This document shows positions 35,166-41,028 of a stretch of 64,000 bases of DNA, piece after piece (position 1 is the first letter of the stretch; every line of letters begins with the position of its first letter). Under the pieces are notes generated by a model. The model had not been told where the DNA came from, searched no databases, and saw only the letters and a list, made by a program, of their open reading frames with translations. The position numbers and the translations under genes are program-made. The stretch lies in the NCBI RefSeq assembly GCF_030160015.1, contig NZ_BSNN01000002.1:124001-188000 (forward strand). Reading direction: 5' to 3'. The DNA is from Amylibacter marinus. GTDB lineage: Bacteria > Pseudomonadota > Alphaproteobacteria > Rhodobacterales > Rhodobacteraceae.

Positions 35166-36697
35166 TCTAGATGAATTTTTACCATTTTTCGCAGTGCGGC
35201 ATCTAACTCGGGCGGGAATTCGGCGCTGGATTGATTAGAAAGGATGCGGCGCTTGGCCTTGATCGCTTGCGTTAGCAATAATGGCTTTTGGTTTTCCATC
35301 CACTCTTTCGGGCTGGATCGATCGGCGATCTCTGGATAGACATATTCAGTCTGCATCAGGTTTAATGTTTGCTCTGATCCTAAATAATGCCCAGGGCCGT
35401 CCTCGCAGACGCTTCGCATGGTCTCTATGGATAGGTTATCCTCGCTGACATCAATGCCGCGCACCGCGCGCAGGGCCTGACCCAACATATCATTTCCGAT
35501 GATCATACTCTCTAAGCAAAATCCTAGCAAAGAGGCATGCATACCTACGGATTCATAAACCATATTTAATCCAGCAAGACCTGCCATAACATTGGATTGT
35601 GCCTGTTCGTACCCCGCCTGCATATCAGGCAGTTTAGAATCGGCAATGCCCGCCGCAGCCCCCCCTGGAATTCCGTAATATTTGTGCATCTGAGCACAAC
35701 CAGCCGTAAGCAAAGCTTGCTCGCCACTACCCCCGGACATCGCTCCTGTGCGCAAATCAGAAACAAATGGCCAGGTTCCAAAAATGGCAGGGTGTCCCGG
35801 TGCGATGGAATTCACATAAACAATCCCCGCAAGGCATTCCGCGACGGCTTGAACAATAGCACCCGCAATCGATGCAGGAGCCGTTGCCCCCGATTGACCG
35901 GCTGATAACAGCAGGATCGGCATGCCACCATGAATGCATTTTTCCATTGCTTCACTGCTTTCTGTCGCGAATTTCATCGGCGGAACAACGAAGCAATTGG
36001 TATTTGAAATAAAGGGGCGTGCGCGGAATTTGTCTTCGCCGCCCGCAATCTCGTAGACAAATTTTAGAGCGCCATCCACATAGCTGGGGTCGCTGAAACT
36101 TGTGCCGATATGTTTGGTGGTGCCGCGAGCGCAGGCATAAATGGTGTTTAGGTCCATCTCATAGTTATCAACAATATCACGACAGACCATGGGCCGCTGA
36201 AAAAAATGCACGTTATCAAGGGTGTTTGCGATTTTGGCAGCGTCGAATAAATCTTGGACAGTGCAATCGCGATAGTCGTTATGTTCGGGATCTACCAGAT
36301 GCACCGCAGCGCCAGCCGTACCATAATGCACGCGGTTTCCGCTGAGCTCTAGGTCATTTTTACCATCACGACTGAACAGCGTGATCTCCTTGGCCGCGAG
36401 GTCTAGCATATCCTCGACTAAGGCGCGCGGAAACCGCAAGCGCCCATCATCGCCAAGGGTTGCACCGGCCTTGGTCATTGCATCAATCCCGCTTTGGGGG
36501 GCATCGGCCAGCCCGATTTGCTCTAGCGCATCAAGGGCTGCGCGGTGTATGCGCAGCACATCGATATCACTGAGCGGTTTATAGGTGCCACCAGCTAGGC
36601 CGGCACGTATTGGGCGAAGATCTTGGGCTAGGGGCGCACGACGCAGGGCGCGCCGCGCATCGCGACCACCAGAGCGGCGCGTGACAGGCTTGTTCAT
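35162..36697 (-). CDS. MttB-family (non-pyrrolysine) methyltransferase
   Basis: 511 aa, belonging to the trimethylamine methyltransferase superfamily by ALDALEQIGL, GTAGAAVHLVDPEHNDYRDC, NTNCFVVPPMKFATESSEAM and the glycine-rich GSGEQALLTAGCAQMHKYYG region. The frame is open throughout with no internal UAG, so it lacks pyrrolysine; characterised members of this kind demethylate quaternary amines such as glycine betaine or carnitine and pass the methyl to a corrinoid protein. Neither a corrinoid protein nor a MtbA-like partner is adjacent. Monocistronic by appearance. Confidence 0.85.
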   Translation of the reverse strand: MNKPVTRRSGGRDARRALRRAPLAQDLRPIRAGLAGGTYKPLSDIDVLRIHRAALDALEQIGLADAPQSGIDAMTKAGATLGDDGRLRFPRALVEDMLDLAAKEITLFSRDGKNDLELSGNRVHYGTAGAAVHLVDPEHNDYRDCTVQDLFDAAKIANTLDNVHFFQRPMVCRDIVDNYEMDLNTIYACARGTTKHIGTSFSDPSYVDGALKFVYEIAGGEDKFRARPFISNTNCFVVPPMKFATESSEAMEKCIHGGMPILLLSAGQSGATAPASIAGAIVQAVAECLAGIVYVNSIAPGHPAIFGTWPFVSDLRTGAMSGGSGEQALLTAGCAQMHKYYGIPGGAAAGIADSKLPDMQAGYEQAQSNVMAGLAGLNMVYESVGMHASLLGFCLESMIIGNDMLGQALRAVRGIDVSEDNLSIETMRSVCEDGPGHYLGSEQTLNLMQTEYVYPEIADRSSPKEWMENQKPLLLTQAIKAKRRILSNQSSAEFPPELDAALRKMVKIHLD

Positions 36698-37789: not shown

Positions 37790-37914
37790 AGGGCCCCCTT
37801 GCTTGCTTATATCTATAGCAATGTAGCCAAATTCAAGCCCCCGCACAGGGGTTTTTCTATCTGTGGCCTTTGTGCAGTCTTGTCTTGTGCTGGGGGAATG
37901 TTTAGGAATTACCT

Positions 37915-37959
37915 ATGAACCGAACAAATTGCACAATTTGCATCATTTTAGCCTGCTGA
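37915..37959 (+). CDS. Cys/Ile-rich leader peptide upstream of cysS-cimA
   Basis: A 14-codon frame, MNRTNCTICIILAC, with AGGA at 37904-37907 and 7-nt spacing to ATG. Three Cys (all TGC) and three Ile codons occupy 6 of 14 positions, while the operon beginning 76 nt later encodes cysteinyl-tRNA synthetase and the first enzyme of pyruvate-based isoleucine synthesis. The last Cys and the stop codon lie inside a hairpin followed by a T-rich run. This is the layout of a translational attenuator. No homologue known to me; inference from sequence. Confidence 0.6.
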   Translation: MNRTNCTICIILAC

Positions 37960-37985
37960 TAGCATCGCGGGCGGTTCTTTTATTT
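37951..37985 (+). terminator. Attenuator-like hairpin downstream of the Cys/Ile leader
   Basis: GCCTGC (37951-37956) and GAT (37958-37960) pair with ATC (37964-37966) and GCGGGC (37967-37972), one bulged T and one G-T pair, followed by GGTTCTTTTATTT. The 3' arm CGCGGGC (37966-37972) can instead pair perfectly with GCCCGCG at 38009-38015, close to the cysS start, giving two exclusive structures. Confidence 0.5.
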
Positions 37986-38035
37986 CCAAAACAAATAAAC
38001 AGTGCTAGGCCCGCGGGGAAACGCGCGAGAGAGCC

Positions 38036-39409
38036 ATGACAGAGATAAAGCTATATAACACCAAGTCCCGCTCTAAGGAGGTTTTTACCCCTTTGGATCA
38101 AAACGACGTGCGTATGTATGTTTGTGGGCCCACGGTTTACGATCGCGCACATATTGGCAATGCGCGCCCTGTTGTGGTGTTTGATTTACTATACCGTCTG
38201 TTGCGCCATGTGTATGGGGGGGATCAGGTAACCTATGCACGCAATTTCACCGATGTGGACGATAAAATCAACAAGCGCGCCACCGAAACAGGCCGCGCAA
38301 TTCGCGATATCACAGATGAGACCATTCAGTGGTATTTGGATGATATGGGGGCCTTGGGCGCGCTAGAGCCAGACCATGCCCCGCGTGCCACCGATTACAT
38401 CACGCAGATGATTGATATGATCGCCGAGCTGATTGACAAGGGTCATGCCTATGCTGCCGAAGGGCATGTATTGTTTCGTGTACGCGCGTATGAAAACTAC
38501 GGGTCTCTGTCTGGGCGTTCGGTTGACGATATGATCGCAGGTGCACGCGTCGAGGTGGCCCCCTACAAAGAAGATCCGATGGATTTCGTCTTGTGGAAAC
38601 CATCGGGCAAGGGTGACCCCAGCTGGGATAGCCCATGGGGCAGTGGGCGCCCTGGCTGGCACATCGAGTGTTCCGCGATGGCGCGCGATATCTTGGGCGC
38701 GCGGTTTGATATCCATGGTGGGGGCTTGGATTTGCAATTTCCCCATCATGAGAATGAAATTGCCCAGTCCAAGGCCTGCTGTGGTGAAGACAGTTTCGCA
38801 CAAGTCTGGATGCACAACGAAATGCTACAGGTCGAGGGCAAAAAAATGTCCAAATCTCTGGGCAACTTCTTCACCGTGCGCGATCTATTGGATCAGGGGG
38901 TGCCGGGCGAGGTAATCCGCTTTGTTTTCCTTGGTACGCATTATTCCAAACCTATGGATTGGACGGAAAGAAAACGCCAAGAGGCCGAGGCGACCCTGCG
39001 TAAATGGCGTGCGCTGTGTGATGGGGCCAAGGCTTCGGCAGAGATTGCGCCTTCGGTTCTGTCTGCGATGGCAGATGATCTAAATACACCCGGTGCGATT
39101 GCGGCCTTGCACGAGCTGGCAAAGCGGGGGGATATTGAGGGGCTTAGGGCCTCGGCGTCTTTGCTGGGATTACTTGCCCCATCTATGGGCGACTGGGTTG
39201 ATACTGGTGGTGATGTGGATTTATCTGCCTATGTGGCCTTGATTTCTGATGCCAGAACCAGCGCAATGCAGACCAAGGATTTTTCCGAAGTAGATCGCCT
39301 AAAGCAAGCCTATATAACCGCCGGATTAGAGGTTCAGATGAGCAAGGCAGGGGTTGAATTGGTGCCCACTGCAGGCTTCAATGTTGAATTATTGGAGGGC
39401 CTATTATGA
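38036..39409 (+). CDS. cysS: Cysteinyl-tRNA synthetase
   Basis: 457-aa class I enzyme charging tRNA-Cys. Signature HIGNARP (HIGH motif) and KKMSKSLGN (KMSKS) are present, as are zinc ligands in [16 protein letters not shown] and HHENE. Normal length. The start overlaps nothing upstream but lies in the control region with the Cys/Ile leader. Its stop overlaps the cimA start (ATGA), so the two are translationally coupled. Confidence 0.97.
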
Positions 39410-41028
39410 CCCGTGAACGTATCTACCTCTACGATACCACGCTGCGTGATGGGCAACAGACCCAAGGGGTTGATTTCTCGGCGGCGGATAAAACACGCAT
39501 TGCCAAGGCATTGGATGCGCTGGGCATAGATTATGTCGAGGGCGGTTGGCCCGGAGCAAACCCAACGGACAGTGATTTTTTTGACGCCGCGCCTAACCTA
39601 AGCGCCACCTTCACGGCCTTTGGCATGACCAAGCGGGCAGGGCGATCTGCCGAGAACGACGATGTCTTGGCCGCGGTTCTGAATGCCAAAACACCTGCGG
39701 TATGTTTGGTGGGAAAATCCCATGACTACCATGTGACAAAGGCGCTGAACATAACGCTGGATGAAAACCTAGAGAACATCCGCGCCAGCATTCAGCATAT
39801 TGTGGCACAGGGCCGTGAGGCGCTGTTTGACTGTGAGCATTTCTTTGATGGGTATCGGGCCAATCCCGATTATGCATTGAAAACCGCAAAGGCGGCCTAT
39901 GAGGCGGGTGCGCGTTGGGTTGTTCTGTGTGATACCAATGGCGGGGCTTTGCCTGATGCAGTGAAAGAGGCGACCCTAGCCGCCATTGGCGCCGGCATCC
40001 CAGGGGATCATTTGGGCATCCATACCCATAACGACACAGAGCATGCGGTGGCAAATTCACTGGCGGCAATCGATGCTGGTGCGCGCCAAATCCAAGGCAC
40101 GCTGAATGGGTTAGGAGAGCGCTGCGGCAACGCTAATCTGGTGACCCTTATCCCTACCTTGCTACTGAAACAGCCCTATGCAGAAAAGTATTGCTGTGGC
40201 GTTACCTCTGATAAACTGGATCAACTGACCAGCCTGTCCAGAATGTTGGATGATATTCTAAATCGCGTGCCAAATAAAACAGCGGCCTATGTAGGCGGGT
40301 CGGCCTTCGCACATAAGGCGGGCCTGCATGCATCGGCAATTCTGAAAGACCCCAGCACATACGAACATGTGGATCCCGCGCTGGTGGGAAATGCGCGTAT
40401 AATTCCGATGTCGAACCAAGCAGGACAGAGCAACCTGCGAAAGCGTCTGGCCGACGCGGGGCTTAGCGTGGAAAAAGGCGATCCTCGGTTGGCGGAAATT
40501 CTAACGCAGATCAAGGAACGCGAAGACCAAGGCTATGCCTATGATAGTGCACAGGCCTCCTTTGAAATCTTGGCGCGCAAAATTCTGGGGCAGATGCCGA
40601 ACTTTTTCGAGGTAAAGCGGTATCGGGTAACCGTAGAGCGGCGCAAAAACAAATATGACAAGATGGTTTCGGTTTCCGAGGCCGTGGTCGTGGCCAAAAT
40701 CGGCAAAGAGAAACTGTTGTCCGTATCAGAAAGCATGGATCAGGAGGCAGGCGACCAAGGGCCAGTGAATGCACTGAGTCGCGCCCTGGCCAAGGACTTA
40801 GGCCCGTATCAACAATATATAGACGACATGCGGTTGGTGGATTTTAAGGTACGCATAACCGGCAGTGGTACAGATGCGGTAACCCGCGTGGTTATCGACA
40901 GCCAAGATAGCGCTGGGCAGCGTTGGTCAACTGTGGGGGTCTCGGCCAATATCGTGGATGCCAGTTTCGAGGCCCTGTTGGATGCCATCTATTGGAAGCT
41001 GATCCGTGATGGCGCCATGGCTGTTTGA
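39406..41028 (+). CDS. cimA: (R)-citramalate synthase
   Basis: Condenses pyruvate and acetyl-CoA, the threonine-independent entry to isoleucine. 540 aa: HMGL-like TIM barrel opening [19 protein letters not shown], metal motif in [30 protein letters not shown], and a C-terminal LeuA allosteric dimer domain (from about residue 410) that usually senses isoleucine. The length and GxQxxG-type start match CimA rather than LeuA or homocitrate synthase. In an operon with cysS. Confidence 0.92.

Follow-up and report, generated by a model that had tools for sequence, protein, structure and literature searches.

A candidate attenuator with cysteine and isoleucine codons ahead of cysS-cimA in Rhodobacterales

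In the 64,000-nt stretch of Amylibacter marinus DNA analysed here (the window), a short reading frame rich in cysteine and isoleucine codons stands before the operon cysS-cimA. Comparison with related loci led us to propose, with a probability of roughly 0.6, that this leader belongs to a ribosome-mediated attenuator of cysS-cimA in Rhodobacterales, which takes both Cys and Ile as inputs and is carried on a leaderless mRNA. The comparison directly yields the reading frame, its constant Ile codons, the promoter position, the RNA pairings, and, in loci that lack cimA, the absence of Ile codons or of the entire leader.

The proposed attenuator would work through competing RNA structures. With an ample supply of charged tRNA-Cys and tRNA-Ile, the ribosome would complete the short ORF and depart, and the free RNA would close a composite hairpin, in which the 5' end pairs with segment 2' and the end of the ORF pairs with segment 2, turning the operon down. 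When either Cys or Ile is short, the ribosome would stall on the Cys-Cys-Ile stretch just ahead of the stop codon and cover segment 1; the hairpin would be blocked, segment 2 would be free for segment 3, and cysS-cimA would be expressed. The leader's codons match the genes behind it, and we suppose that cysS is the gene served by the Cys codons and cimA, whose product opens the citramalate route to isoleucine, the one served by the Ile codons. We infer, rather than read from the alignment, that the ribosome stalls, that both amino acids are sensed and at which level control acts. We think it an even bet that each of two unrelated genes keeps its own codons in a shared stall window, whose composition is rewritten upon gene loss (to Cys where cimA is gone, and to almost only Ile in genus g15), and that the leaderless mRNA uses its 5' end to complete the OFF hairpin, which would mask the start codon.

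If this is true, a published cysteine attenuator is a two-amino-acid device which couples tRNA-Cys charging to isoleucine synthesis, and natural losses of cimA make codon-by-gene co-evolution in its leader directly testable. Cysteine is reported to inhibit acetohydroxyacid synthase in Corynebacterium, where growth was relieved by valine and only slightly by isoleucine, and a title cited in the same paper names threonine deaminase as a cysteine target in E. coli (PMC11893703). Such reports of inhibition make a link between Cys supply and Ile supply plausible.

The leader ORF, its promoter and its published relatives

The leader ORF (MNRTNCTICIILAC) lies at 37915-37959 on the forward strand and was read directly as 14 codons, from ATG to TGA. 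As the earlier note on this DNA had said, it carries three Cys codons (TGC at codons 6, 9 and 14, none in tandem) and three Ile codons (ATT, ATC and ATT). It is separated by 76 nt from the start of cysS at 38036. The note had also read the operon as an enzyme that charges tRNA with cysteine followed by one that commits carbon to isoleucine, and this agrees with the NCBIfam equivalog models from which the genes were named, both matching above their cut-off: cysS, cysteine--tRNA ligase (38036-39409, +), matches TIGR00435 at 446.6 bits (cut-off 340), and cimA, citramalate synthase (39406-41028, +), matches TIGR00977 at 587.2 bits (cut-off 450). The two reading frames overlap by 4 bases. Rfam at gathering score gave no match at the leader.

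The predicted promoter of the leader, P1 (37880-37908, +), was recognised by position-specific conservation relative to the leader ATG. In the window the order is TTGTCT (the -35 element, 37880-37885), a 17-nt spacer, TAGGAA (the -10 element, 37903-37908), 6 nt and then ATG. A generic scan of 37800-38060 called no sigma-70 promoter, and the earlier note had counted the unclear promoter among its weak points. A promoter is probably present, because relatives aligned on the leader ATG keep TTG of the -35 element and TA of the -10 element at a fixed distance from it, together with a pyrimidine at -1 (164/166 leaders, and C or T in all 78 later leaders). A matrix trained on the leaders of loci L001-L110 gave a mean of 5.23 at the right frame in the 78 later loci, and -0.48 to -10.65 when shifted by 1-12 nt. 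With a matrix that includes the window, the window promoter scores 7.7, and to three decimals each of 917 other ATGs scores lower.

The leader had also been credited with a proper ribosome site. The AGGA ahead of it does fit the SD pattern used, but AGGAA is largely the -10 element, and an SD core stands before the leader ATG in only 26/166 loci and before cysS in 137/166, with 10% in shuffles. Taken together, the promoter geometry, the pyrimidine at -1 and the scarcity of SD cores suggest that the leader ORF is probably leaderless, with the A of its start codon as the transcript start. A terminator-like stem with a T-rich tail lies at 37835-37854 (+), just upstream of this promoter.

We take the window locus as a member of uORFC-8-2, a motif reported in 2021 with 145 examples, exclusively before cysS of Rhodobacterales (PMC8632094), so the existence of the leader and its Cys model are not new. 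As described there, uORFC-8-2 has a conserved AUG and two highly conserved tandem Cys codons, usually codons 14 and 15; ribosome-mediated attenuation with an intrinsic terminator was proposed, the final stem being followed by a U run, and a third stem was called rare and without co-variation (PMC8632094). The main text of that paper makes no mention of isoleucine, cimA, citramalate or leaderless. By the published description, the window leader shares with uORFC-8-2 the cysS context, the order, the AUG, a uORF with Cys codons, a hairpin and a T-rich tract. However, uORFC-8-2 is described as Cys-only with a terminator, whereas the leaders here carry Cys and Ile, and their T-rich tract is interrupted, with no terminator called in the window. 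Tandem Cys codons begin at codons 8-10 in 100/166 of our leaders as against codons 14 and 15 there, and the helix at the 5' end here, which may or may not be the reported third stem, co-varies strongly while that stem was described as not doing so. The earlier note had offered a leader sensing two amino acids as a novelty; the Cys attenuator was already in print (PMC8632094), and what appears to be new is the Ile part. The tie between leader and cimA, the probable leaderless start and the co-variation at the 5' end seem to be new as well. Within the open-licence literature of PubMed Central, constant Ile codons seem to go beyond the published Cys element.

The thr and ilvGMEDA leaders of E. 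coli are multivalent, with codons for more than one amino acid in one leader; their amino acids belong to linked pathways, whereas Cys and Ile here match two unrelated genes. Canestrari et al. (2020) reportedly described leaderless polycysteine sORF attenuators of mycobacteria. These mycobacterial sORFs are associated with cysteine biosynthetic genes and translation attenuation in a paper whose relevant passages mention no Ile sensing (PMC13236596). They are likewise leaderless, Cys-rich and ahead of an operon, but they belong to another phylum, and as far as that description goes the likeness is one of resemblance only.

Codon content of the leaders and the presence of cimA

cysS was present in 190/195 related genomes. 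The first locus set joined 30 loci kept from related genomes to 80 from named records, whose titles are largely Rhodobacterales; 2 of these 110 loci were dropped for too short an upstream, and a short C/I-rich ORF ends 60-131 nt ahead of cysS in 99 of the 108 scored (loose rule). This set held 100 unique upstreams, 91 of them with an ATG leader, and alignment A1 contains 82 of these 91, six with odd spacing and L009, L028 and L064 being left out. The enlarged set comprises 254 loci, 239 of them unique; 14 with an undecided cimA state were left out of the contrasts, which leaves 225 in the cysS tree, and the family counts exclude 22 loci from other families (L189-L210).

The alignment of relatives that the earlier note had suggested bears out a conserved short ORF. 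A C/I-rich leader stands before cysS in 166/179 unique family loci which also carry cimA, against 3.2% of shuffles and 6/179 reverse complements of the same upstreams, and the caller finds none in the remaining 13/179. Five genomes of the window's own genus (loci L005, L006, L007, L010 and L011) have an A-T-rich upstream and cimA directly behind cysS, and the leader ORF is absent from them. In other families, cimA is matched with at least 55% identity downstream on the same strand in 11/22 loci, in one of them at a distance of about 1.4 kb. Among the 22, inspection by eye gave no more than one plausible leader (L190), so the gene pair extends beyond the range of the leader. The sORF of L190 (MLGSTFCIIDWIICDR), at -173 to -122 before cysS and with cimA behind, could represent a distant C/I leader.

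Among the residues of the 166 cimA-linked leaders, Ile comes first (629/2104) and Cys second (462/2104). Val, Leu, Met and Phe jointly make up 96/2104, so hydrophobicity alone does not explain the Ile. Codons -7 to -2 before the stop include Ile in 166/166 leaders and Cys in 162/166; codon -4 is Ile in 154/166, and codons -6 and -5 are Cys or Ile in 152/166 and 158/166. The usual ending is I-I-C-C-I-(T or P)-C. At most one Ile is found in 2/166 leaders and at most one Cys in 21/166. Both ATT and ATC occur, ATT being favoured relative to usage in cysS genes. The caller requires Cys or Ile and picks the richest candidate, a choice which favours Cys/Ile counts; since two Cys are enough for a call, Ile is not imposed by this rule.

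A search of 395 family genomes for cimA left 17 without a strong match. Two of the 17 (G043 and G079) were already in the set; the other 15, and 4 more genomes, were searched for cysS. A cysS locus was obtained from 13 of the 15, and in 6 of these 13 the contig ends no more than 703 nt from cysS and leaves the cimA state undecided; these six have C/I leaders with Ile. Six genera were added around informative genomes, selected for holding such genomes. A locus was counted as cimA-less if no cimA lay within at least 1.4 kb of sequence behind cysS, which gave 46 unique loci.

The caller finds no leader in 40 of these 46 loci and an sORF in 6. We read four of the sORFs as Cys leaders with 0-1 Ile: MDWICCLCRA in L224 and L238 and MEWICCPC in L239 (promoter score 0.6), each with one Ile, and MTRTCRTGCCLTC in L143, which has no Ile and a promoter score of -4.0, exceeded by 19% of background ATGs. 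The calls in L229 and L244 were judged false, having background promoter scores of -12.2 and -9.1, and that in L229 looks like the end of the upstream gene. The contrast can be seen inside genus g24, where a leader was found in 14/14 loci with cimA (one search) and a credible one in 0/16 loci without it. Genus g46 has a credible leader in 0/20 loci, and for 17 of the 20 the sequence extends at least 1.4 kb beyond cysS.

A tree of the 225 cysS proteins implies no fewer than 12 switches in cimA state and 18 in the leader. It offers 8 supported independent pairs; averaged over pairings, leader and cimA agree in 6.6-6.7 of these and conflict in 0.0 (p: median 0.016, range 0.008-0.22), a single conflict turning up in one of 200 pairings. 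For leaders carrying two or more Ile, agreement with cimA averages 7.3 of the 8 pairs and conflict 0.0 (p: median 0.016, range 0.008-0.063). Midpoint rooting gives 12 maximal cimA-less clades, and we judge the leader to be gone in ten of them and to be of the Cys type, with 0-1 Ile, in two. One of the ten contains the false calls L229 and L244, and another contains L232 and L289. In front of their cimA-less cysS, these last two loci share a conserved ORF of 15 codons, with a single Cys and without Ile, possibly a leader remnant.

The DNA behind cysS in 41/46 cimA-less loci matches the DNA behind cysS of loci with cimA, so cimA was probably lost in place; upstream DNA matches too in genera g46 and g179 and in L174 and L223. 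Loci L226, L290, L291, L232 and L289 had no match to the downstream DNA of loci with cimA. A foreign origin of cysS in the cimA-less genomes is unlikely for the 41 loci, given their matching downstream DNA; upstream genes differ in g24. Altogether the comparison supports the reading that the leader follows cimA and that its Ile part is tied to cimA. Because the ten clades without a leader lost it at cysS too, loss alone cannot separate an Ile part kept for cimA from a whole leader kept for cimA, and the cases of a Cys-only leader are few, coming from two clades only and including the poor promoter score of L143.

Two other readings of the codons have to be weighed here. A leader that senses cysteine alone on behalf of cysS, through an intrinsic terminator as proposed for uORFC-8-2, would make the Ile codons structural or accidental. 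This is the published model, and it fits the tandem Cys codons of 72/91 leaders in the first set (110/166 in the enlarged set) and the two cimA-less clades which retain Cys codons with 0-1 Ile. The Ile codon after the Cys pair is ATT in 66/69, which could mean an RNA constraint, but those ahead of the pair vary between ATT and ATC. Moreover, Ile is no less constant than Cys in the stall window, it is absent or single where cimA is absent, and two genomes of genus g15, which keeps cimA, keep Ile with 0 or 1 Cys (MNAPNRIIGIIIGG and MDAPNRLIGIIICG); we therefore regard a Cys-only device as unlikely. Alternatively, the nascent Ile/Cys peptide could stall the ribosome in response to a ligand, redox state or metal rather than tRNA charging, and the short C-terminal motif I-I-C-C-I-(T/P)-C is indeed common. 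Yet Cys and Ile interchange at codons -6 and -5, as would be expected of codons rather than of a fixed motif, and leader composition follows gene content, so that an arrest peptide seems quite improbable.

RNA pairings and the level of control

The segments of the proposed attenuator all lie on the forward strand. Segment 0 (GAACC, 37917-37921), at the 5' end of the RNA, pairs with GGUUC at 37973-37977 in the predicted fold, with co-variation in relatives. Segment 1 (37951-37960), the last codons and the stop, pairs in predicted folds with segment 2 (AUC GCGGGC, 37964-37972), and comparison of relatives suggests that 37966-37972 of segment 2 may pair instead with segment 3 (GCCCGCG, 38009-38015). 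Behind segment 2 come segment 2' and a U-rich tract (GGUUCUUUUAUUUCC, 37973-37987), also placed by comparison. Segment 3 may also pair with segment 4, which is placed with the cysS ribosome-binding region (CGCGAGAGAG, 38024-38033) by folds of weak statistics (mean z -0.71 over 82 relatives).

The earlier note had put the last Cys and the stop codon in a 9-bp hairpin, and the predicted fold of the window does contain it, at 37951-37972 with one bulge; its 3' arm is, as claimed, complementary to bases ahead of cysS (38009-38015), and the T-tract is interrupted, a weakness the note had itself pointed out. Single-sequence folding of the window is no better than shuffles (z -0.52 and -0.72), so support for the structure is comparative. 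Pairing 1:2 is possible in 71 to 82 of 82 relatives per base pair. The outermost pair of 2:3 is G-C in 32/81 relatives, C-G in 21/81 and unpaired in 26/81, and RNAalifold on the whole alignment returned three pairs only, all of helix 2:3. Both pairings are conserved in relatives, and they are mutually exclusive since they share segment 2, as the note had expected of them.

Co-variation points to the 5' end. Of 96 and 83 loci with cimA, 84 and 71 had a leader whose segment 2 could be recognised; these were thinned to 50 (exploring set) and 56 (second set), and to 97 for a joint scan. Helix 0:2' was first seen in 82 loci and gave z -7.2 in the exploring set and z -10.9 in the second, against -1.2 to +2.8 in control windows away from the site. 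In the 41/71 second-set loci that are unlike the exploring set, the first ten nucleotides and the tract behind the hairpin still gave z -8.2. In an open scan of 374 window pairs over the 97 thinned loci, the strongest signal again linked the 5' end to the tract behind segment 2 (z -9.9), followed by the extension of 1:2 at the stop codon (z -7.6); the 1% quantile over all tests was -4.9. The same scan gave z -3.6 for 2:3 and z -2.5 for 3:4.

A terminator scan of the window called no intrinsic terminator at the hairpin, and the T-rich tract is interrupted. In relatives the tract has a mean of 7.2 T of 14, with a longest run of 2-4 in 79/82. The alternative pairing in the earlier note stands as a conserved, mutually exclusive structure, but not as the antiterminator of a terminator at that tract, because segment 3 is transcribed only once RNA polymerase has passed it.

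To model stalling, the ribosome-covered RNA was removed before folding, in the 75/82 relatives which have an SD by the rule used, every second of them (38) entering the footprint test. Free RNA gives more 1:2 and 3:4, and a ribosome at the stop codon (14-nt footprint) gives 3:4. An A-site at the Cys-Cys-Ile stretch gives 2:3, which prevails for codons -6 to -3 when the footprint is 13, 15 or 17 nt; an 11-nt footprint favours it from codon -5 on and yields the ON fold even with the ribosome at the stop codon. The modelled opening of the SD on stalling is modest, from 0.42-0.45 to 0.57-0.63, and stalls at codons -14 to -11 also raise 2:3, with the SD not opened.

These folds bear on the level of control. 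If control were on translation, formation of 1:2 would leave segment 3 to shut the cysS ribosome-binding region, and a stall would open it through 2:3. Segment 2 is complementary to segment 3, with co-variation at one outer pair, 3:4 folds pair the CC of segment 3 with the GG of the SD in many relatives, and the modelled SD opening tracks the stall position. However, the statistics of 3:4 given above are weak, its pairs end at the SD edge when the window region is folded alone, and cimA lies 101-592 nt behind cysS in 73/179 loci, where it would be out of reach without polarity. Translation-level control as the whole explanation seems doubtful to us, although the cysS SD may be the level of control or a second layer of it. 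We favour control at the level of transcription, because the leader follows cimA although cimA can be up to 592 nt behind cysS, and a second C/I leader was found in 0/41 cysS-cimA gaps over 150 nt. In G077, where cimA is relocated, no leader was seen by eye before it.

Between the hairpin and segment 3 lies a conserved element, TTYC-N15/16-TGNYAR (37984-38008, +), which is perhaps a second promoter. Allowing spacers of 12-19, it occurs in 98/166 loci with a leader, against 2% of shuffles. In loci without a leader it occurs in 3/13 with cimA and 3/40 without, against 1-2% of shuffles.

Elsewhere in the window, a trimethylamine methyltransferase-like gene of 511 aa has no in-frame stop and scores 328.1 of 525 bits, below the NCBIfam cut-off of the trimethylamine enzyme model. 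Inside it, at 35548-35647 (-), is a match to Rfam PYLIS_3 of 55.7 bits.
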